From NCBI GenBank assembly GCA_017548925.1, contig JAFYYX010000001.1, positions 548,852-612,851 of the forward strand: a DNA stretch of 64,000 nt. Direction: 5' to 3'. The first letter of the stretch is position 1; each line of letters opens with the position of its first letter. Positions 41,806 through 64,000 of the stretch are shown here, piece after piece. The notes under the pieces were generated by a model. The model searched no databases. It saw nothing but the letters and a program-made list of their open reading frames with translations, and was not told the origin of the DNA. The DNA is from Bacilli bacterium. Its GTDB lineage: Bacteria; Bacillota_I; Bacilli_A; RF39; UBA660. The translations under genes were made by a program, and so were the position numbers.

Positions 41806-44358
41806 ATGAATAAGTCAAAATTTAGATTTACTGTAATTATGGCTATATATAATGTTGAAAAATATCTTGAGGAAGCAATTAATAGTGTAATTAATCAATC
41901 GTTAGATTTTAAAAAGAATATCCAAATTGTATTAGTCAATGATGGTAGTCCTGACAATTCAGAAGATATATGCAAGAAATACATTAGATTATATCCAAAT
42001 AATATTAAATATATTAAAAAAGTAAATGGTGGTGTTTCTTCCGCAAGAAATGCAGGATTAGAAATTGCAGATGGTGAAATTATTAATTTTTTAGATAGTG
42101 ATGATTATTTTTCAAAAAATGCTTTTAAAAAAGTTGATGATTTTTTTAAAAAATATAAAAATAAAACGGATGTTGTTGCATTAAATTTGATTAATTTTGA
42201 AGCTTCATCTGGTTCGTGGGTAAATAAAGATTTTTTTAGTACTACAAGAATAATTGATATGAAAAGCGAGTATCATTTTATGCAGTGCCAGGTTGGAGCT
42301 TCATTTATAAAAAGAGATCAAGCGTTATCATATAAATTTGACGAAAGAATTAAAATTCACGAAGACAGTCAATATTTATTTAAAATATTTAGAGACAAAC
42401 CATTTTGCGGAGTAATCTCCGATGCTACATATTACCATAGAATTAGAAATAATAAATCGTCTGCAACTCAAAATATTAATTTAAAAAGTAATATTTTTAA
42501 CATGTCTAAAATATTATTGCCTGATATTATAAATTTTTATTATTTAAAAGATAATAAAATTCCATCATTTTTGCAAACATTCATTATTCTCGAATTTAAT
42601 TTTTATGTTCTTAATAATATAAATAAAGTTAATTTTAATAAAGCAGAAAAAAAGGACATCTGTGATAGTATAAAAAAAATATTATCAATTCTATCTGAGG
42701 AAGATATTAAGAATCATCCATATATTGATAATATAATTAAAACAAGATATTTGATTTTAAAAAGAAATATAACTTTAATTTTTAACAAATCTTTTATGAG
42801 TGATCCTATCAATTATAAAGCAAGTAAAAAGTTGATTAAACGTTGTTTAATAAAAATAAGAAGAATTCTTGGAAAAATTAAAAGAAGATTTCGTTTTCCG
42901 TTTTCAAAAACAATAAAAAATGTTAATTATTTAATGGGTGAAAATATAAATAACATTAACATTATTAACAATCAAGAATTAAGAATAAATAATAATGAAA
43001 AAAACATAAATAATATTAAAAATAAAACAGAGTACGAAATCTTAGAATTAAAAAAAATGGTAGATAATTTTTATAAAAACGTTGAAATTCAAAATGAAGA
43101 ATTAAAACGTTTAAATAGTGAACTTGCAGTAAATATTAAAGAACTTCAATCAGAATTTGATTACAACTTTTCAAGAGATGTAAAATATATTTCATATTTT
43201 TATGGTGGAAGTGATAATAGAGGGTGTGAAGCTCTTGCCAAAACAATCTCAAAAAAACTTGAATGTAAACGAGATAATTTATCTATAATCACGTTTAGAA
43301 AAAAAGATGATATTGATGCTAAACTAAATAAATATATAAAATATATTGTTGAACCAAAATTGTTTAATAGTGGTGAATCCAAAATTGAATATATGGGTAA
43401 TTGCAGATTTAATTATTCAGACATGGGGATTACCGAATATATTAAAAATTTAAATGCAGACAATAATGTTGTTGCATTGTCTATTGGTGGCGATAATTAT
43501 TGCTACGGTGACTATATATGTTCTTTACTCAAAAAATATAACAACATTTTTCATAATTATGGAATAAAAACAGCATTAATAGGTTGTAGTATAGATGAAG
43601 ATGTTTTTAAAAATAAAAATGTCATAGATGATTTAAATTTATACGACTTAATTATTGCAAGAGAATCGTTAACATATAATAATTTAATAAAAGCTGGAAT
43701 CAATAAAAACACTTGCTTAATACCAGATCCAGCATTTGAACTTGAAACAATTAATCTCGAATTACCTAAGGAGTTTATAATTAATAAAACAATTGGTATA
43801 AATATGAGTCCTATTGTTGCTTGTAACGATAAGAATAATTTAGTTTATAAAAATTATGATAGATTAATTAGATATATTTTAGACAAAACAAACTACAATA
43901 TTGCCCTAATTCCACATGTTTTTTGGGATAAATCAAACGATTATGAGATAATGTTACCTTTTTATAAAAAATATTTAAAAACAAGAAGAATATGTATTAT
44001 AGAAAAATCATCATCTGAAGAATTAAAAGGTTTTATTTCAAGATGTAAAATTTTTATTGGAGCGAGAACCCATGCAACTATCGCAGCATATAGTTCGTTT
44101 GTTCCCACACTAGTTGTTGGCTATAGTATTAAATCTAAAGGTATTGCAACAGATATATTTGGTGATTATAAAAACTATGTTTTATCAATTGATGATATTA
44201 AAAGTGATGATCAACTTATAAAATCATTTTTATTTATAGAAAAAAATTGTGATTCAATCAATAAATATTTAAAAGACAAAATTCCAAAATATTTGAAACC
44301 ATTAAAAAACTATAAGAAGATTATTAAAAATTTGGATAAAAAAGGAGAAAACAAATGA
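41806..44358 (+). CDS. GT2 glycosyltransferase fused to polysaccharide pyruvyl transferase
   Basis: 850 residues. Residues 5-225 form a GT2 domain (FTVIMAIYNVEKYLEEAI, VLVNDGSPDNS, DSDDYF). Residues 395-450 are an Asn/Lys/Glu-rich coiled coil. Residues 460-840 match the pyruvyl-transferase family (CsaB/WcaK): FYGGSDNRGCEALAKTI, LSIGGDNYCYGDY, IARESLTYNNL, LIPDPAFEL and IGARTHATIAAYSSFVPTLVVGYSIKSKGIA. The second domain should add ketal pyruvate, giving the polymer acidic groups. GGAGG precedes the ATG. It ends in TGA, the only TGA stop found in the window, overlapping the next start as ATGA. Confidence 0.88.
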   Translation: MNKSKFRFTVIMAIYNVEKYLEEAINSVINQSLDFKKNIQIVLVNDGSPDNSEDICKKYIRLYPNNIKYIKKVNGGVSSARNAGLEIADGEIINFLDSDDYFSKNAFKKVDDFFKKYKNKTDVVALNLINFEASSGSWVNKDFFSTTRIIDMKSEYHFMQCQVGASFIKRDQALSYKFDERIKIHEDSQYLFKIFRDKPFCGVISDATYYHRIRNNKSSATQNINLKSNIFNMSKILLPDIINFYYLKDNKIPSFLQTFIILEFNFYVLNNINKVNFNKAEKKDICDSIKKILSILSEEDIKNHPYIDNIIKTRYLILKRNITLIFNKSFMSDPINYKASKKLIKRCLIKIRRILGKIKRRFRFPFSKTIKNVNYLMGENINNINIINNQELRINNNEKNINNIKNKTEYEILELKKMVDNFYKNVEIQNEELKRLNSELAVNIKELQSEFDYNFSRDVKYISYFYGGSDNRGCEALAKTISKKLECKRDNLSIITFRKKDDIDAKLNKYIKYIVEPKLFNSGESKIEYMGNCRFNYSDMGITEYIKNLNADNNVVALSIGGDNYCYGDYICSLLKKYNNIFHNYGIKTALIGCSIDEDVFKNKNVIDDLNLYDLIIARESLTYNNLIKAGINKNTCLIPDPAFELETINLELPKEFIINKTIGINMSPIVACNDKNNLVYKNYDRLIRYILDKTNYNIALIPHVFWDKSNDYEIMLPFYKKYLKTRRICIIEKSSSEELKGFISRCKIFIGARTHATIAAYSSFVPTLVVGYSIKSKGIATDIFGDYKNYVLSIDDIKSDDQLIKSFLFIEKNCDSINKYLKDKIPKYLKPLKNYKKIIKNLDKKGENK

Positions 44359-54627: not shown

Positions 54628-55683
54628 ATGAGTATATTTAAAGATAAAGTATTAATGATAACAGGAGGAACTGGTTCTTTTGGCAATACTGTTTTAAAGC
54701 ATTTTTTAGAATCAGATATTAAAGAAATCAGAATTTTTTCCAGAGATGAAAAAAAACAAGATGACATGAGACATGACTTACAAGCTAAACATCCAAAATT
54801 CGCAAATAAAGTTACTTTCTATATAGGCGATGTTAGAAATTATCAAAGTGTTAGGGACGCAATGGTTGGTGTTGATTATATTTTTCATGCCGCAGCTCTT
54901 AAACAAGTCCCATCTTGTGAATTCTATCCTATGGAAGCTGTAAGGACAAATGTTATTGGAACAGATAATGTTTTACATGCTGCAATTGAAGAAGGTGTTA
55001 AAAGAGTTGTATGTTTATCTACTGATAAAGCTGCTTACCCAATTAATGCCATGGGTACATCAAAAGCTATGATGGAAAAAGTTATATATGCAAACGCAAG
55101 AATATCAGCACAACGTGGAGGACCAGTTATTTGTTGTACAAGATATGGAAATGTCATGTGTTCTAGAGGAAGTGTAATCCCATTATTTATTGATCAAATA
55201 AAATCAGGAAGACCAATAACCATCACAGATCCAAATATGACACGTTTCTTAATGAATCTAGATGAAGCTGTAGATCTTGTCCAATTTGCGTTTGAAAATG
55301 CAAATCCTGGTGATTTATTTATTCAAAAATCAGATGCTTCAACAATTGGAGATCTTGCAAAAGCCGTGCAAAAATTATTTGGTGATACAGGAACTAATAT
55401 AATTGGTACAAGACATGGTGAAAAATTATATGAAACACTTATGACAAGAGAAGAAAGATTAAGATCAGAAGATATGGGTAATTATTTTAGAGTAGCTGCT
55501 GACTCTAGGGATTTAAATTATGATAAATTTGTTGTAGACGGTGAAGTAAAAACAATGGCTGATGAATCATATACATCACATAATACAAACAGATTAGATG
55601 TTGAAGGCACAGTAAAAAAGATTTTAACAACAGATTATGTTAAAGAAGAATTAGAGAATTGGAAGAAAGAACAAAATAAATAA
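54628..55683 (+). CDS. capE: UDP-GlcNAc 4,6-dehydratase/5-epimerase CapE
   Basis: 351-residue extended SDR; first step from UDP-GlcNAc towards UDP-N-acetyl-L-fucosamine. NADP-binding ITGGTGSFGNTVLKHFL; catalytic region LSTDKAAYPINAMGTSK in which Met-x3-Lys replaces the standard Tyr-x3-Lys, as known for CapE/FlaA1-type inverting dehydratases. Later GTRHGEKLYETLMTREE is typical. Followed by capF and capG in the order found in Staphylococcus capsule loci. AGGAGG precedes ATG 54628. Confidence 0.93.
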   Translation: MSIFKDKVLMITGGTGSFGNTVLKHFLESDIKEIRIFSRDEKKQDDMRHDLQAKHPKFANKVTFYIGDVRNYQSVRDAMVGVDYIFHAAALKQVPSCEFYPMEAVRTNVIGTDNVLHAAIEEGVKRVVCLSTDKAAYPINAMGTSKAMMEKVIYANARISAQRGGPVICCTRYGNVMCSRGSVIPLFIDQIKSGRPITITDPNMTRFLMNLDEAVDLVQFAFENANPGDLFIQKSDASTIGDLAKAVQKLFGDTGTNIIGTRHGEKLYETLMTREERLRSEDMGNYFRVAADSRDLNYDKFVVDGEVKTMADESYTSHNTNRLDVEGTVKKILTTDYVKEELENWKKEQNK

Positions 55684-55709
55684 TATATTTGAAAGGTATA
55701 ATAATATAT

Positions 55710-56885
55710 ATGAAAGTTTTAGTTACAGGAGCAAAAGGATTTGTAGGTAAAAATTTAGTTGAATCTTTAAAAAATATTAAAGATGGTAAAGACAGAACTA
55801 GACCAAATCTTTTAATTGAAGATATATATGAATTTGATATAGACACTGATATTAATCTTTTAGATGAATATTGCAAGAATTGTGACTTTGTGTTTAATCT
55901 AGCCGGTGTTAATAGGCCAAAAGATGTCTCTGAATTCATGAGTGGTAATTTTGGCTTTGCCAGCACATTACTAAATAAACTAAAAGAAAATAATAATAAA
56001 TGTCCTGTCATGCTTTCCTCATCAATACAAGCAAAACTTGATAATGATTATGGAAAAAGTAAATTAGAAGGTGAAAAATTATTTTTTCAATATTCAAAAG
56101 AAAATGACGTTAAAGTATTAGTATATAGGTTTCCCAATTTATTTGGAAAATGGTGTAGACCAAACTATAACAGTGTTATAGCAACATGGTGTAACAATAT
56201 TGCAAATGATTTAGATATACAAATAAATGATCCTACAGTAGAATTAGAATTATGTTATATAGATGATGTTGTAATTGAATTGTTAGACGCTTTAGAAAAT
56301 AAAGAACACAAAGATGGTGATTATAACTATATACCGTGCACCCATAAAATCACATTAGGAAAGATCGCAGAATTATTAAAAAATTTTGCTGAACAACCAA
56401 AGAATTTAATAATGCCTGATATTCCAAATAATTCTTTTGAAAAAAAATTATATTCAACATATTTATCATATTTGCCTCACGAAAAGTTTAAATTTGAATT
56501 AACATCAAATGTTGATGAAAGAGGAAGTTTTACTGAATTGCTAAAAACTGCAAATAATGGTCAATTTTCAGTAAATATTAGTAAACCTGGAATAACTAAA
56601 GGGCAACATTGGCATAACTCTAAATGGGAATTTTTTATTGTTGTAAAAGGAACTGCATTAATTCAAGAAAGAAATCTTCATTCAAACGAAGTTATTGAAT
56701 TTCAAGTTAGTGGTGAAAAACTAGAGGCAATTCATATGATACCTGGATATACACATAACATTATTAATTTGTCAGATACTGAAGATTTAATTACATTAAT
56801 GTGGGCTAATGAAATTTTTGATAAAAATCATCCAGATACTTTTTATGAGGAGGTAAATAATCATGGAATTAAAAAAAGATTATAG
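55710..56885 (+). CDS. capF: UDP-2-acetamido-2,6-dideoxy-hexose reductase CapF
   Basis: 391 residues from ATG 55710; TTG 55689 precedes the GAAAGG site. The N-terminal SDR domain has VTGAKGFVGKNLVESLK and a Tyr-x3-Lys in DYGKSKLEGE. The C-terminal cupin domain has GQHWHNSKWEFFIVVKGTA, with metal-binding His and Glu. The two-domain layout is specific for CapF/WbjC, which epimerises and reduces the CapE product to UDP-N-acetyl-6-deoxy-L-talosamine. Overlaps capG by 23 bases. Confidence 0.93.
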   Translation: MKVLVTGAKGFVGKNLVESLKNIKDGKDRTRPNLLIEDIYEFDIDTDINLLDEYCKNCDFVFNLAGVNRPKDVSEFMSGNFGFASTLLNKLKENNNKCPVMLSSSIQAKLDNDYGKSKLEGEKLFFQYSKENDVKVLVYRFPNLFGKWCRPNYNSVIATWCNNIANDLDIQINDPTVELELCYIDDVVIELLDALENKEHKDGDYNYIPCTHKITLGKIAELLKNFAEQPKNLIMPDIPNNSFEKKLYSTYLSYLPHEKFKFELTSNVDERGSFTELLKTANNGQFSVNISKPGITKGQHWHNSKWEFFIVVKGTALIQERNLHSNEVIEFQVSGEKLEAIHMIPGYTHNIINLSDTEDLITLMWANEIFDKNHPDTFYEEVNNHGIKKRL

Positions 56886-58047
56886 CAACATCAAATGGAA
56901 AGATAATGGAAAACTAAAATTATTAATAATTGTTGGAACCAGACCAGAAATAATAAGACTAAGTGCTGTTATTACAAAATGTAGAGAATATTTTGACTGT
57001 ATTCTTGCACATACTGGGCAAAACTATGATTATAATTTAAATGGAGTATTTTTTAAAGACTTAAAATTAGATGATCCAGAAGTGTATATGGATTCAGTAG
57101 GAGATGATTTAGGGGAAACAGTTGGTAATATTATTGCATCATCATATAAATTAATGAATCAAATTAAACCAGATGCATTATTAATTCTTGGAGATACTAA
57201 TAGTTGTTTATCAGCAATAAGTGCAAAAAGGTTACATATTCCAATATTTCATATGGAAGCAGGAAATAGATGTAAAGATGAGTGTTTACCTGAAGAAACA
57301 AATAGAAGAATTGTTGATATTATCTCTGATGTTAATCTTGCCTATAGCGAACATGCTAGAAAATATTTACATGAATGCGGACTTCCAAAAGAAAGAGTAT
57401 ATGTTACTGGATCACCAATGGCTGAAGTATTAGAAAATAATATTAAAGAAATTGAAGCCAGTAATATTTTAAATAAACTTAATCTTAAAGCTAAGAATTA
57501 TATTTTATTATCAGCTCATAGAGAAGAAAATATTGACACTAAAGAAAATTTTGAAAGTTTATTCAATGCTATTAATAAACTTGCTGAAAAATATAATATG
57601 CCAATACTTTATTCATGTCATCCTAGAAGTAAAAAAAGGCTTGAAAGTTCTAATTTTCTTTTGGATAAAAGAGTAATTATGCATGAACCGTTAGGATTTC
57701 ACGACTATAACAACTTACAAATGAATTCCTACTGTGTTGTAAGTGACTCAGGAACGCTTCCTGAAGAAAGTAGTTACTATTTAAGTATTGGAAAACCTAT
57801 TTCAGCTGTTTGTATTAGAACAAGTACAGAAAGGCCTGAAGCTTTAGATAAAGCTGCATTTATTCTTGCTGGAATTAGTGAAAAAGAACTTCTTCAAGCT
57901 GTTGATATAGCAGTAAATATGAATAAGAATAATCAACTTGGCATACCTGTGCCAGACTATATTGATACAAATGTATCAATAAAAGTTGTAAAAATTATTC
58001 AAAGCTACGTCAACATTATAAATAGATTTGTTTGGAGAAAAAAATAA
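56863..58047 (+). CDS. capG: UDP-N-acetyl-L-fucosamine synthase CapG (2-epimerase)
   Basis: 394-residue non-hydrolysing UDP-HexNAc 2-epimerase fold. IIVGTRPEIIRLSAVI, LGDTNSCLSAISAKRLHIPIF, HMEAGNRCKDECLPEETNR, LSAHREENID and VSDSGTLPEESSYY are all family motifs. After capE-capF this is CapG/FnlC, giving UDP-L-FucNAc, rather than MnaA. The ribosome-binding site GAGGAGG lies within the end of capF. Last gene of the second polysaccharide unit. Confidence 0.92.
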   Translation: MELKKDYSNIKWKDNGKLKLLIIVGTRPEIIRLSAVITKCREYFDCILAHTGQNYDYNLNGVFFKDLKLDDPEVYMDSVGDDLGETVGNIIASSYKLMNQIKPDALLILGDTNSCLSAISAKRLHIPIFHMEAGNRCKDECLPEETNRRIVDIISDVNLAYSEHARKYLHECGLPKERVYVTGSPMAEVLENNIKEIEASNILNKLNLKAKNYILLSAHREENIDTKENFESLFNAINKLAEKYNMPILYSCHPRSKKRLESSNFLLDKRVIMHEPLGFHDYNNLQMNSYCVVSDSGTLPEESSYYLSIGKPISAVCIRTSTERPEALDKAAFILAGISEKELLQAVDIAVNMNKNNQLGIPVPDYIDTNVSIKVVKIIQSYVNIINRFVWRKK

Positions 58048-58166: not shown

Positions 58167-58188
58167 AACAAAACATGAGGTGGGTTTT

Positions 58189-60033
58189 ATGCAAGCATTA
58201 ATGTTAGCAGCTGGAATGGGTAAAAGACTTGGTAAATTAACCAAAGATAATACTAAGTGTATGCTTCCTATTCAAGGTAAAACTTTAATTGAAAGAGCAG
58301 TTGAAGCTTTGCTTGATGCTGGTATTAAAAAAATGACTATTGTAGTTGGATATAAAGGAGATAACTTAAAGAAGTTTTTAACTGAAGAATGTACTAATCC
58401 TAGAATTAAAGAAATGGATTTTGTTTTTATAGATAATCCTATCTATGATAAAACAAATAATATTTATTCTTTATATTTAGGTAAAGATGTATTAATTGAA
58501 GATGATACTATTCTTTTAGAATCTGATTTAATCTATGAACCGGAACTAATTAAAAAGTTAGTTGAAAGTGATAAAGTTAATGCTGTTACTGTTGCTAAAT
58601 ATGAACAATGGATGGATGGTACAGTAATTAAAATTGGTGAAAATGATCAAATAACTGAATTTATTGAAAAGAAAGATTTTAATTATAAAGAAATTGATAA
58701 ATATTATAAAACTGTAAACATCTATAAATTTACAAAAGAATTTTCTGAAAAACAAATTCTACCATTTTTAGATGCTTATATTAAAGCATATGGAGAAAAT
58801 GAATACTATGAATTAATATTTAAAATTATTGCTCATTTATCTAGATCTGATTTAAAAGCATTAGATATTGGTAATATTAAATGGTATGAAATGGATGATA
58901 TTCAAGATGTTGAAATAGCAAATGCTTTATTTGCTAAAGGTGAAGATAAATTAAAATTATTTCAAAAAATGTATGGTGGATATTGGAGATTTGAAAATAT
59001 TTTAGATTATTGTTATTTAGTTAATCCATATTATCCTCCAAAAGAAATGATTGATAAATTTAAACATGAAATGTCACAGCTTATTACTCAATATCCATCA
59101 GGACTTCATACACAAAATATTAATGCATCAAGACTTCTTGGCAATGTTGATGATAAATATTTAGTTGTAGGTAATGGAGCTGCTGAACTTATTAATATTT
59201 TAGGTAACACATTAAGTGGAAATATGTATGTATCTAAAACAGCATTTAATGAATATATTAGATGTTTTAGAAATTGTAATTTTAATATTTATGATGAAAG
59301 CAAAAATCTTTATAAATTAAATATTGCTGAAACTTTAGAAAATATTCCATTAAATGACATTATTTGTATTGTTAATCCAGATAATCCTACTGGAGCTTTT
59401 GTTAGATTCGAAGATATGATTAATATTATTCAAGCTTGCCATAGTGAAGATAAAATATTAATTGTAGATGAATCATTTGTTGATTTTGCTGATAAAGACA
59501 AAAGATATACATTAATTAAAGATGATATATTAAGTACATATAAAAATTTAATTGTTGTTAAATCAATTAGTAAATCATATGGTATACCAGGAGTAAGACT
59601 AGGTGTTTTAGCAACAGGTAATGAAGATCTACTAAGTGTAATAAAAAACAATCTACCTGTGTGGAATATAAACTCATTTGGTGAGTATTACTTGCAAAAT
59701 TGTACTTTATATAAAAAAGAATATGAAAAAGCATGTGACAAAATTGCCGAAGAAAGAACTAGATTCATAAATGAACTTAGAAATCTAGGTATTGAAGTAT
59801 ATGATTCACAAGCTAACTTTGTTTTAGTTAACTTAGATAGTGTTAACTCAACAGATCTAGCAGTTGATTTATTATGTAATTATGATATATTTATAAAGGA
59901 TCTAAGAACAAAGAATTCATTTAAAGGATTAAACTTTGTTAGACTTGCAATTAGAACAACAGAAGAAAACAATAAATTAATAGAAGGTTTAAAACACGCT
60001 TTAAATATTAAAGATAAACAAAGAAAAAGATAA
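58189..60033 (+). CDS. Cytidylyltransferase-PLP aminotransferase/decarboxylase fusion
   Basis: 614 residues from ATG 58189 behind GAGGTGGG. Residues 1-240 are a sugar-nucleotidyltransferase domain of the LicC type: MLAAGMGKRLGKLTKDNTKC, then LESDLIYE and IKWYEMDDIQD. Residues 250-614 are a fold-I PLP domain of the HisC/CobD type: NPDNPTGAF, DESFVDF and the probable PLP-binding Lys462 in SISKSYGIPGVRLG. LicC activates phosphocholine, and the related PntC activates aminoethylphosphonate and can be fused to a transaminase (of another PLP family). So this enzyme probably makes a CDP-activated amino-alcohol phosphate or phosphonate. The substrate is inference. Confidence 0.85.
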   Translation: MQALMLAAGMGKRLGKLTKDNTKCMLPIQGKTLIERAVEALLDAGIKKMTIVVGYKGDNLKKFLTEECTNPRIKEMDFVFIDNPIYDKTNNIYSLYLGKDVLIEDDTILLESDLIYEPELIKKLVESDKVNAVTVAKYEQWMDGTVIKIGENDQITEFIEKKDFNYKEIDKYYKTVNIYKFTKEFSEKQILPFLDAYIKAYGENEYYELIFKIIAHLSRSDLKALDIGNIKWYEMDDIQDVEIANALFAKGEDKLKLFQKMYGGYWRFENILDYCYLVNPYYPPKEMIDKFKHEMSQLITQYPSGLHTQNINASRLLGNVDDKYLVVGNGAAELINILGNTLSGNMYVSKTAFNEYIRCFRNCNFNIYDESKNLYKLNIAETLENIPLNDIICIVNPDNPTGAFVRFEDMINIIQACHSEDKILIVDESFVDFADKDKRYTLIKDDILSTYKNLIVVKSISKSYGIPGVRLGVLATGNEDLLSVIKNNLPVWNINSFGEYYLQNCTLYKKEYEKACDKIAEERTRFINELRNLGIEVYDSQANFVLVNLDSVNSTDLAVDLLCNYDIFIKDLRTKNSFKGLNFVRLAIRTTEENNKLIEGLKHALNIKDKQRKR

Positions 60034-60048
60034 GAAGTGATATAAAAT

Positions 60049-62121
60049 ATGTTTTTTGTAAATTGGTTAGGCTATGTGATGCATTTTTGCTATAACTTAT
60101 TAGGTAATTATGGTTTAGCAATTATATTATTTACTATTTTAAGTAAGTTTGTATTATTGCCACTATCTATAATGATTCAAAAAGAATCAATAAAGATGGT
60201 AAAAATGCAACCTAAAATAAATAGAATTAAAATAAATTATTTTGGAGATAATAATACTATTGCAGAAGAAACTTCTAAATTGTATAAAGAAGAAAAATAT
60301 AATGCTTTATCTTCTTTATTCCCATTAGTAGTTCAAATTATCCTATTATTAGGTCTTGTAAGCGTTATTAATCATCCACTTACACATTTAACTAAGATTA
60401 GTGATAAAAGCGTTAATAGTGCCACTAAAATAGTTTTAAATAACCATAAGAATTTAAATAAAGAAGCATCAGATTTAGAAATAGAAATAGTTAAAGATAT
60501 TCAAAAAGGTAAAACTAAATCTTATGAAGAAGTATTAACTAAAAAAGAAGTTAAAGAAGTTAAAGATTTAAAACTATCTTTCTTAGGATTCAATCTAAGC
60601 TGGGTAGCATCTGTTGAAAAAGGCATAGCTTATTTAGTTCCTATAATAGCTGGTTTAAGTGCACTATTCTTATGTGTATTTCAAAATAAGATTAATGTAC
60701 TTCAAGCTGAACAATCTAAATATAATAAATATGGTATGTTAATCCTATCAGTAGGTTTATCATTATATTTAGGTACCTTTGTTGCTGCAGGTGTTGCTTT
60801 ATACTGGACTATTAGTAACTTACTAGCTGTACTACAGCAATTCTTACTAAATATCTTTATTAATCCTAAAAAACATGTAGATTATGAAGCTTTAGAAGAA
60901 ACCAGAAAAGAATTAAAAGAACTTAATGATTTAAATAAAGATATGGGAAAAAGAACTCCTGAACAAATTAAAAAAGAAAAAGAAGATTATAAAAAGTTCT
61001 TTAAAATAGTAAATAAAAAATTAGTCTTTTATTCTGAAAGTAATGGTTTTTATAAATACTATAAAGGTATTATAGAGTATATTTTAAATAATACTAATAT
61101 AACAATTCATTATATAACTAGTGACTATAACGATAATATCTTTAAAATGGAAAAAGAAAATGATCATATTAAAGCATATTACATTGAAGAAAAGAAACTT
61201 ATTACACTTATGATGAAAATGGATGCCGATGTCGTTGTTATGACAATGCCTGACTTACAAAACTTCCATATTAAACGTAGTTATGTAAGAAAAGATATTG
61301 AATATATCTATATTCCTCATGGAATGGATAGTTTAAACATGACTATGAGAGAAGCATCAATGAATCACTATGATACAGTTTATGTAACAGGAAAACACCA
61401 AAAAGAAGAAGCTGAAAGAACAAATGATATTTATCATCTAACTGATAGAAAAATCTTTAACTGGGGTTATTCTTTACTTGATGATATGATTAGTGATTAT
61501 GAAAAAAATAAGAAAAAAGCATCAAAAGAAAAAAATATCTTAATAGCTCCATCTTGGCAAAAAGATAACATTATTGATTTATGTTTAGAAGATATTTTAA
61601 ATAATGTTAAAGATGAAGATTATAATATTATTGTTAGACCTCATCCACAACAAGTAAGACATATGAAAGAAAGATTTGAACAATTAAAAGAAGAATATAA
61701 AAAATATCCTAATATTATAATTCAAACAGATTTTTCTTCAAACAGTACTGTCTTTGATGCCGATGTAATGATAACAGATTGGTCTGGTATTGCATATGAA
61801 TATGCATTTACTACTAAAAAACCAGTAATTTTTATTAATACACCAATGAAGATAATGAATCCTAATTATCAAAATTTAGGTATTGAACCATTTAATATTT
61901 GGGCAAGAGATTGCTTAGGTAAATCACTTGATGGTGATGAAATAAATAATATTAATAAAGTTATAAAAGATATGTTAAAAAATAATAAAAAGTATTATAA
62001 TGATATTGATAAATTTACAAAAGAATATACTTATAATTTAGGTACATCTTCTAAAAAAGGTGCTGAGTATATTATTGATGTAATTAAAGAAAAGATAGAA
62101 GAAAGGAAGAATAATAAGTAA
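60049..62121 (+). CDS. YidC-type insertase fused to TagF-like polyol-phosphate polymerase
   Basis: 690 residues. Residues 1-285 are a YidC/Oxa1 domain: membrane segments LLGNYGLAIILFTILSKFVLLPL, LSSLFPLVVQIILLLGLVSVI, KGIAYLVPIIAGLSALFLCVF and LGTFVAAGVALYWTISNLL. Lys33 stands at the usual groove Arg, and an extra charged loop lies near residues 115-180. A Lys/Glu coiled-coil linker (285-330) leads to a CDP-glycerol glycerophosphotransferase domain (335-690) with H424 in IPHGM, H532 in RPHPQ and DWSGIAYEYAFTTKKPVIF. No frame break exists at the junction. It would polymerise or prime polyol-phosphate at the membrane; the insertase part could be an anchor, channel or true insertase. Confidence 0.9.
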   Translation: MFFVNWLGYVMHFCYNLLGNYGLAIILFTILSKFVLLPLSIMIQKESIKMVKMQPKINRIKINYFGDNNTIAEETSKLYKEEKYNALSSLFPLVVQIILLLGLVSVINHPLTHLTKISDKSVNSATKIVLNNHKNLNKEASDLEIEIVKDIQKGKTKSYEEVLTKKEVKEVKDLKLSFLGFNLSWVASVEKGIAYLVPIIAGLSALFLCVFQNKINVLQAEQSKYNKYGMLILSVGLSLYLGTFVAAGVALYWTISNLLAVLQQFLLNIFINPKKHVDYEALEETRKELKELNDLNKDMGKRTPEQIKKEKEDYKKFFKIVNKKLVFYSESNGFYKYYKGIIEYILNNTNITIHYITSDYNDNIFKMEKENDHIKAYYIEEKKLITLMMKMDADVVVMTMPDLQNFHIKRSYVRKDIEYIYIPHGMDSLNMTMREASMNHYDTVYVTGKHQKEEAERTNDIYHLTDRKIFNWGYSLLDDMISDYEKNKKKASKEKNILIAPSWQKDNIIDLCLEDILNNVKDEDYNIIVRPHPQQVRHMKERFEQLKEEYKKYPNIIIQTDFSSNSTVFDADVMITDWSGIAYEYAFTTKKPVIFINTPMKIMNPNYQNLGIEPFNIWARDCLGKSLDGDEINNINKVIKDMLKNNKKYYNDIDKFTKEYTYNLGTSSKKGAEYIIDVIKEKIEERKNNK

Positions 62122-62335: not shown

Positions 62336-62366
62336 AACATTAAACAAGTAATTGTTTAATGTTTTT
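62336..62366 (+). terminator. Intrinsic terminator
   Basis: AACATTAAACAA / TTGTTTAATGTT arms with GTAA loop and T run. Confidence 0.92.
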
Positions 62367-62374
62367 TATTGTTG

Positions 62375-62380
62375 TATAAT
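62375..62380 (+). promoter_or_regulatory. -10 box of the sulfatase-like gene
   Basis: TATAAT 15 bases after the terminator; separate transcription of the last gene. Confidence 0.6.
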
Positions 62381-62402
62381 ACTTCTTGGAAGTGAAGTAA
62401 AA

Positions 62403-64000
62403 ATGTTAAAGAAGTTAATTCCTGCATATATATTATCATTTGTAATAGCTTTTACTATTTTTATAAATGAACCAATAATTTTATATGCAACAAATAAAAA
62501 TGATTTATGGTTTGATTTTATGACAATGTTAAAACCAGCAACTATATTATTTATATCATCATTTATTTTAGTATCAATAATATATACTTTAATTAAGTAT
62601 TTATCAAAAAAAGATAAAGCATATAATATAATTTTAGTTATATCATTTATTATATATTTTGCCTCATATATTCAAGGTAATTATCTACTTAAAGATTTAC
62701 CTGGACTTGAAGGAACAACAATTGTATGGAAAGGCTTTTTAGTTCAAAATATAATTACTTTATTTATATGGCTTATTTTAATAACTACATATATTATATT
62801 AGTAAAAAAATTTAGTTTTGAAAAAGTAATTAAAACATCTAGTAAAGTAGCAATTGTTATATTTATAATGCTTTTAGTATCATGCACATCAACAATGCTT
62901 ACAACTAAAAAGATGTTTAGAAAGAAATATCCTTTACTTGTAACTGATATTAATTATACTGATTTTTCTAAAGATAAAAACTTTATTATCTTTTTAGTGG
63001 ACGCAGTTGATTCAAGTACTTTCTATAAAGAACTTGAAAATAGTAAATATAAAGATAGTTATAAAGATTTTACATATTATCCTGATACAACTTCATATTA
63101 TTTATTTACGCGTGATTCAATACCTCTTATTTTAAGTGGTATACCAAATCATAACGAAAAAGATTATTATGAATATTATAATGAAGCGTTTGATAAATCA
63201 GAATTATTTGATAATCTAATAAATAATAATTATGATATTAATATTTATGATCATGAACTTATTTGGACTACAGAAAAAGGTAAAAATGTTAAAAATACAA
63301 CTGCTGTATCTAATGATGTTAAAGTTTTAAATTTTGCAAGACATAATTTAAAATATGTAGGTTATAAATATTTACCATACTGTTTTAAAAAATATGCAAA
63401 AATTGAAAATATGGATTTTAATAATAGTAAAGATATTGATTATACAAATAGTTATTCATGGGATGATATAGATAACTATAAATTAATAGTTAATTCAAAT
63501 GTTACAATAAATGAAAATAAACAATTTAAATTTATACATGTTAATGGATCACATCCACCATACAATATAGATGAAGAATTAAATCGTGTTGAAGAAACAA
63601 AAGATGGATATAATAAAGAAGTAAGTGCATCAATTAAATTAATGTCTTCATATATTGAAATGTTAAAACAAAATGGTGTATATGATAATTCAGTAATTAT
63701 CTTACTTGCAGATCATGGATATACTGGTTCTAAAAATACTTTGAATAAAGTAAATCCAATTCTTCTTGTAAAAGGATTAAATGAAATAAATAAAAAAATG
63801 ATTATATCTGATAAAAAAGTTTCATTCTTAGATTTAAAAGAAGCCTATAAAGAATTATTAAATGGTAAAAAATCAACTGATTTATTTAAAGATATAGCGC
63901 CAGATAGAATAAGAACATTTATTTGGTATAAATTTACTAAAGAAAGAAAAATGGTTGAATATAAGCTTGATGGCCATGCTTGGAATGGTGAAAAAGCTAA
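62403..64000 (+). CDS. Alkaline-phosphatase-superfamily membrane enzyme (sulfatase/LTA-synthase-like), 3' end cut
   Basis: Starts at ATG 62403 behind GGAAGTGAAG and runs open to the window edge (532 codons). Five hydrophobic segments (within residues 1-165) precede an extracellular domain. The fold's metal-site motifs are visible: FIIFLVDAVDS, candidate nucleophile region in YYLFTRDSIPLILSG, FIHVNGSHPPY and ILLADHGYTG. The layout matches LTA synthase, phosphoethanolamine transferases and related sulfatase-like transferases. It is likely to move or hydrolyse a phospho-alcohol group on an outer-surface polymer or glycolipid. The position after the cytidylyltransferase/TagF genes supports a shared pathway. 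Confidence 0.87.
   Translation, partial: MLKKLIPAYILSFVIAFTIFINEPIILYATNKNDLWFDFMTMLKPATILFISSFILVSIIYTLIKYLSKKDKAYNIILVISFIIYFASYIQGNYLLKDLPGLEGTTIVWKGFLVQNIITLFIWLILITTYIILVKKFSFEKVIKTSSKVAIVIFIMLLVSCTSTMLTTKKMFRKKYPLLVTDINYTDFSKDKNFIIFLVDAVDSSTFYKELENSKYKDSYKDFTYYPDTTSYYLFTRDSIPLILSGIPNHNEKDYYEYYNEAFDKSELFDNLINNNYDINIYDHELIWTTEKGKNVKNTTAVSNDVKVLNFARHNLKYVGYKYLPYCFKKYAKIENMDFNNSKDIDYTNSYSWDDIDNYKLIVNSNVTINENKQFKFIHVNGSHPPYNIDEELNRVEETKDGYNKEVSASIKLMSSYIEMLKQNGVYDNSVIILLADHGYTGSKNTLNKVNPILLVKGLNEINKKMIISDKKVSFLDLKEAYKELLNGKKSTDLFKDIAPDRIRTFIWYKFTKERKMVEYKLDGHAWNGEKA

Follow-up and report, generated by a model that had tools for sequence, protein, structure and literature searches.

The fusion gene and its neighbours

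The window analysed here is a stretch of 64,000 nucleotides from a Bacilli genome (GCA_017548925.1, contig JAFYYX010000001.1), and all genes and features from 54628 onwards described below lie on its forward strand. At 58189..60033 a single open frame of 614 aa, which runs from ATG 58189 to the stop at 60031-60033 free of frameshifts and has full-length homologues, encodes a fusion protein predicted to form CDP-ethanolamine. This ATG was preferred over a GTG at 58180; homologues start with MxAxxLAAG, which fits the ATG. Pfam recognizes NTP_transferase at residues 3-218 (5e-13) and Aminotran_1_2 at residues 274-599 (5e-32). The N-terminal cytidylyltransferase domain (residues 1 to about 254; 58189..58950) is assigned from its invariant residues and its best solved relatives, PntC-AEPT 6pd1 and LicC 1jyk. 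The C-terminal fold-I PLP domain (residues about 255-614; 58951..60030) is assigned to the CobD/SMUL_1544 type from profiles, solved relatives, a tree and VIA-align. In the homologue alignment its arm starts with a junction motif, G263-G-Y-W-R267 (58975..58989), in which G263, G264 and W266 are invariant and R267 is kept in 81 of 83 homologues. An AlphaFold2 model of the whole chain, for which a 57-sequence alignment was used, has a mean pLDDT of 94.3 and a pTM of 0.89. The top Foldseek match of the full-chain model is the PntC-AEPT fusion 6pd2 (E 2.5e-31), while SMUL_1544 (6oux), 3ftb and CobD are the best matches of the PLP half.

Upstream, at 54628..58047, lie surface-sugar genes for a Polysacc_synt_2 epimerase, an epimerase/cupin enzyme and a WecB-type 2-epimerase (Pfam; TIGR00236 over cut-off), which we take to resemble the UDP-FucNAc FnlA-FnlB-FnlC set. 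Fifteen bases downstream of the fusion starts a gene (60049..62121, 690 aa) that combines a YidC-like part (60049-60978; Pfam 60KD_IMP) with a TagF-like CDP-X phosphotransferase (60979-62118; Glyphos_transf 7.7e-13). A search of the genome found no PF04464 domain besides this TagF-like one and no match to LicD, while a second YidC is encoded elsewhere. YidC-TagF is the predicted user of the fusion's CDP product, and proteins of similar build adjoin the fusion in four other loci (L033, L034, L035 and L043). It is followed by a gene for an LtaS-like membrane protein of the sulfatase/alkaline-phosphatase fold (62352..64000; Pfam Sulfatase 4.4e-6), which runs off the window; a sulfatase-fold gene also neighbours fusions in L033, L043 and spirochaetes. 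Elsewhere in the window (41806-44358), glycosyltransferase family 2 and polysaccharide pyruvyl transferase domains share one 850-aa frame.

Distribution of the fusion

A junction-region pattern scan (two patterns, including the GGYWR motif) over 84,980 genomes gave at least 563 confirmed loci that encode relatives of the fusion. The 80 loci kept come from Bacteroidota, Spirochaetota, Clostridia, Bacilli, Saccharibacteria and Fibrobacter; all match over both halves, 79 of them end to end and one truncated where its contig ends. A genome of the same genus carries the fusion at 77% identity, and further full-length fusions come from other Bacilli and from five mollicutes that read TGA as Trp. Since the same two-domain protein is found in the same genus, in Bacilli, in Mollicutes and at 80 named loci, a chance or assembly product is excluded and the fusion is genuine. 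The first-pass annotation had read a cytidylyltransferase and a PLP enzyme in one chain, and the single frame, the Pfam domains, the model and the homologues all bear this out.

Fusions in two Saccharibacteria genomes (L034, L035) are 60-62% identical to that of the window, a likeness that suggests gene transfer between phyla. A Fusobacterium vincentii record in a plasmid collection holds a fusion at 42% identity, and phage records hold the PLP half only, at low identity. One mollicute copy (L032) is missing its first 24 residues, in frame, has extra stops and is possibly a decayed gene. Annotated plasmid records label the fusion 'aminotransferase class I/II-fold PLP-dependent enzyme', and no family reached its curated NCBIfam cut-off for the fusion proteins scanned.

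The cytidylyltransferase half

Residues G11, R13, K23, E111, D113, E234 and D236 are invariant among 83 aligned homologues. In the nucleotidyl consensus, R13 and K23 correspond to Arg15 and Lys25 of PntC, and replacing either of these by alanine cost PntC most of its activity (PMC6697681); the fusion has Thr22 in place of the consensus Pro of the PK step. The consensus Arg and Lys and the acidic metal ligands of LicC and PntC are all present. As judged by its sequence, the N-terminal half is a LicC/PntC-type cytidylyltransferase, with CTP and a phospho-amine as predicted substrates. Because streptococcal LicC prefers phosphocholine to phosphoethanolamine 2700-fold (PMC6697681), the amine specificity of the fusion needs measuring. 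The N-terminal half also exists unfused: L027 encodes, divergently beside a LicD gene, a stand-alone cytidylyltransferase that is 52% identical to it.

The PLP half

Among NCBIfam models the PLP half is best matched by TIGR01140 (CobD threonine-phosphate decarboxylase), at 167 bits against a curated cut-off of 290.55, followed by HisC TIGR01141 at 153-155 bits against 276.55. Sequence scores to solved relatives are highest for SMUL_1544 (6oux, 134.8 bits), followed by 3ftb (115), Salmonella CobD (69.9) and Thermotoga HisC (60.8). VIA-align gives the highest Z to Salmonella CobD (39.2), with SMUL_1544 at 37.3, a gap of only about 2. In a maximum-likelihood tree, which covers 36 PLP domains, 6oux falls within the clade of all fusions (100/99), the placement of the long SMUL_1544 branch itself being weaker (90/82); in the same tree, a starred branch (96/98) parts HisC from the fusions.

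The catalytic set K462, D427, N399 and R470 aligns with that of relatives and is invariant in 83 homologues, as is F430. K462 (59572..59574), the PLP Schiff-base lysine, aligns with the catalytic Lys of CobD and HisC, and D427-E-S-F430 (59467..59478) holds the PLP pyridine Asp and a Phe. Three sites, F430, W492-x-x-N495 and R585-x-A-x-R589, are CobD/SMUL_1544-like, whereas HisC has Tyr, Y/F..S and R-x-T-x-G there. Lys570 is shared by 80 of the 83 fusions; CobD, SMUL_1544, HisC and unfused rhizobial relatives have Arg at this position, and the phosphate pocket of the fusions would therefore differ.

Profile, tree, active-site residues and modelled fold together make a solid case that the PLP half belongs with the CobD/SMUL_1544 phospho-amino-acid decarboxylases, and we infer that it is a decarboxylase rather than a transaminase. 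The labels 'LicC-like' and 'HisC/CobD-like' of the first-pass annotation were both right, and the second is now settled in favour of the CobD type. A histidinol-phosphate aminotransferase joined by chance to a nucleotidyltransferase is an extremely unlikely reading. HisC models do match, and the fusion is the top match (154.7 bits) in a hisC search of the genome; no gene of that genome reaches the hisC cut-off, though, and HisC identity was rejected on this score, on the separation in the tree and on the missing HisC-specific residues, while the same fusion is conserved across many phyla. The annotation would have given up its idea for a PLP domain firmly among HisC proteins in a genome with a full his pathway but no other hisC; the domain lies outside them.

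A true CobD-like enzyme, which would act on L-threonine phosphate and supply a surface polymer with CDP-(R)-1-amino-2-propanol, is distinctly unlikely. Such an enzyme would agree with CobD as the best NCBIfam model and with the highest VIA-align Z. However, sequence and tree are nearer to SMUL_1544, the Z gap to 6oux is small, the score lies below the CobD cut-off, and genomic linkage described below points to the serine pathway. Both domains of the fusion are complete and bear the conserved residues of active enzymes; their activity is predicted.

Probable users of the product

A LicD or a TagF-like CDP-X phosphotransferase is encoded within 6 kb of the fusion in 47 of the 80 kept loci, both being present in only one; 33 loci have neither, some of their contigs ending early. 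One or the other family lies near so many fusions, by an enrichment judged by eye, and the two are so seldom together that either of these CDP-X phosphotransferase families probably receives the product, each standing in for the other. The 106 same-strand adjacent genes include 13 Glyphos_transf, 13 LicD, 13 octopine-dehydrogenase-like and 10 ornithine-cyclodeaminase (OCD)/mu-crystallin-like genes. An octopine-dehydrogenase or OCD gene lies within 6 kb in 36 of the 80 loci (examples are L036, L037, L073, L077, L088 and L090) and never occurs with TagF. These neighbours could N-carboxyalkylate the amine, and where LicD is the transferase, an imine-reducing enzyme probably often acts too.

Candidate substrates

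In five mollicutes (L028-L032) a homologous DUF1015-type gene, named as DUF1015 by Pfam in L028, directly precedes the fusion, and in three of the five LicD follows, giving a DUF1015-fusion-LicD cluster. The LicD of L028 scores 326 bits against the Mf1 equivalog cut-off of 225, and Mf1 of M. fermentans acts in vitro as a phosphoethanolamine transferase with CDP-ethanolamine as donor (PMC11982090). Half of the 14 DUF1015 loci fetched, all seven from Bacteroidales (L129, L130, L132 and L135-L138), have DUF1015 after a SerA gene, mostly with SerC as well; five of the SerA/SerC genes were checked. This position after serC-serA ties DUF1015 to phosphoserine and suggests a serine or phosphoserine role for this unnamed family. 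One guess is a serine kinase; a search for solved relatives at E<=1 gave none, and a literature search on its function gave no useful paper. DUF1015 was found neither in the window genome (92% complete) nor in the close relatives L033 and L034.

SMUL_1544 has been proposed as a source of ethanolamine phosphate (PMC4585668), and in Campylobacter jejuni Cj1436 decarboxylates serine phosphate to ethanolamine phosphate for the capsule (PMC12409886). Taken together with the DUF1015-serine link and Mf1, they favour phosphoserine as the substrate and CDP-ethanolamine as the product.

Another possibility, which we consider unlikely, is that the PLP half works by transamination and converts dihydroxyacetone phosphate to serinol phosphate, from which the other half would make CDP-serinol, with phosphoserine unneeded. 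Both chemistries occur in capsule loci: in C. jejuni, Cj1437 carries out this transamination and is encoded beside the decarboxylase Cj1436 (PMC12409886). The window genome also has no recognised phosphoserine source, since neither a recognisable SerC nor DUF1015 was found in it and its class-V aminotransferase matches number only two. However, the active-site residues and the tree follow CobD/SMUL_1544 and not HisC-type transaminases, the DUF1015/serC-serA link indicates phosphoserine, and Cj1437 is likened to the fusion by description only.

The first-pass annotation had pointed to phosphonate genes and to choline/ethanolamine kinases as clues to the substrate, and the genome searches turned up neither PEP mutase nor such a kinase. 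No match to a choline/ethanolamine kinase was found in the window genome, and a route through such a kinase was dropped there. PEP mutase is missing from the window genome, where phosphonate use was rejected on that account, and likewise from 50 of the 57 genomes with a fusion, so that a phosphonate is not the usual substrate. It is accordingly very unlikely that the fusion resembles FrbH in using an aminophosphonate, for instance phosphonoalanine or 2-amino-4-phosphonobutyrate, even though FrbH holds the same set of chemistries in one protein (PMC6697681, PMC8007912), PEP mutase is found near the fusion in 3 of the 80 loci, and unfused homologous pairs occur in rhizobial aepX clusters. In these plasmid-borne clusters (L117-L119) a CobD-like gene lies near a cytidylyltransferase gene, and two of the three also hold a CDP-alcohol phosphatidyltransferase. 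A fusion on Priestia pBM700 lies near a DXR gene, which raised the idea of an FR-900098-like cluster; as an FrbH stand-in it was rejected, no PEP mutase being annotated within about 17 kb.

Proposed function

We consider it fairly probable that the fusion is a bifunctional enzyme which converts O-phospho-L-serine and CTP to CDP-ethanolamine, with which a glycan or glycolipid of the cell surface would be decorated. In this scheme the PLP half would strip CO2 from the serine moiety and the N-terminal half would attach CMP; YidC-TagF would then pass ethanolamine phosphate to a glycan or lipid. Serine as the amino acid, the order of steps and the final acceptor are what we infer for this pathway. 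In one order, phosphoserine would be decarboxylated to ethanolamine phosphate, which would then be cytidylylated. In the other, which FrbH reportedly follows, the amino acid would be cytidylylated first, and the CMP conjugate, CDP-serine, would then be decarboxylated. Lys570 fits a different phosphate pocket without proving the order through CDP-serine. That this large unnamed family makes CDP-ethanolamine by decarboxylation of CDP-serine, with Lys570, an Arg in SMUL_1544, CobD and HisC, adapted to the phosphodiester, is a tentative idea that we hold as possible but doubtful. If true, it would yield CDP-ethanolamine without ethanolamine, ethanolamine kinase or phosphatidylserine. The open-access literature searched contained nothing bearing on a CobD-like/cytidylyltransferase fusion making CDP-ethanolamine.

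The first-pass annotation had also raised a CobD-like decarboxylase and an activating enzyme in one protein, and this combination is favoured by the active-site residues, by SMUL_1544 as the nearest structure and by neighbours predicted to use CDP-linked head groups. Should the phosphoserine reading hold, gut and oral bacteria in their hundreds (Bacteroidales, Treponema, Clostridia, Saccharibacteria and Mollicutes) can build charged amine-phosphate surface groups from serine and decorate surface sugars or lipids in this way without ethanolamine or choline from the host. The prediction specifies a single enzyme, a single pair of substrates and a single, directly measurable product; it also offers a clue to what DUF1015 does.

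Relation to known systems

Several known systems share parts of this arrangement. LicC/LicD and the CD0242/CD0244 type A glycan system of C. difficile likewise pair a cytidylyltransferase with a LicD or TagF-like transferase to place a CDP-linked amino group, but they use scavenged choline or phosphothreonine, and no fused decarboxylase appears in the reports on them (PMC10434233, PMC10714395). Cj1436, which we liken to the fusion by description only, has a product that is amide-attached and dephosphorylated rather than CMP-activated. SMUL_1544 of Sulfurospirillum multivorans, the closest solved PLP domain by sequence, shares the W-N-I-N, D-E-S-F and R-x-A-x-R motifs; it differs in being a stand-alone protein that serves norcobamide synthesis and has Arg at the Lys570 site.

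PntC-AEPT of Treponema denticola (6pd1/6pd2) has the same domain order, the nearest full-chain fold and the best solved relative of the N-terminal domain. The two proteins part ways in the PLP half, a class-V AEP transaminase in PntC-AEPT (PMC6697681) and Aminotran_1_2 with a CobD-type fold in the fusion, and the first-pass annotation had correctly placed the two in different PLP families. PntC-AEPT was the only comparison made there; the precedent of FrbH, by which decarboxylation may come after cytidylylation, was missed.

In the biosynthesis of FR-900098, FrbH converts 2-amino-4-phosphonobutyrate to CMP-3-aminopropylphosphonate (PMC8007912), one enzyme holding a LicC-type nucleotidyltransferase and a PLP decarboxylase and giving a CMP-linked amine (PMC8007912, PMC6697681). 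The architecture of the fusion thus has a precedent in FrbH, which joins a CMP-transferase to a PLP decarboxylase. We liken the two by the published description only, and the fusion is a putative decarboxylase by kinship. FrbH belongs to a phosphonate pathway, whereas the fusion lies in a surface-polysaccharide locus of a genome without PEP mutase. The FrbH-type architecture is known; what is new and notable is the wide spread of an unnamed family of this build in surface-polymer loci.
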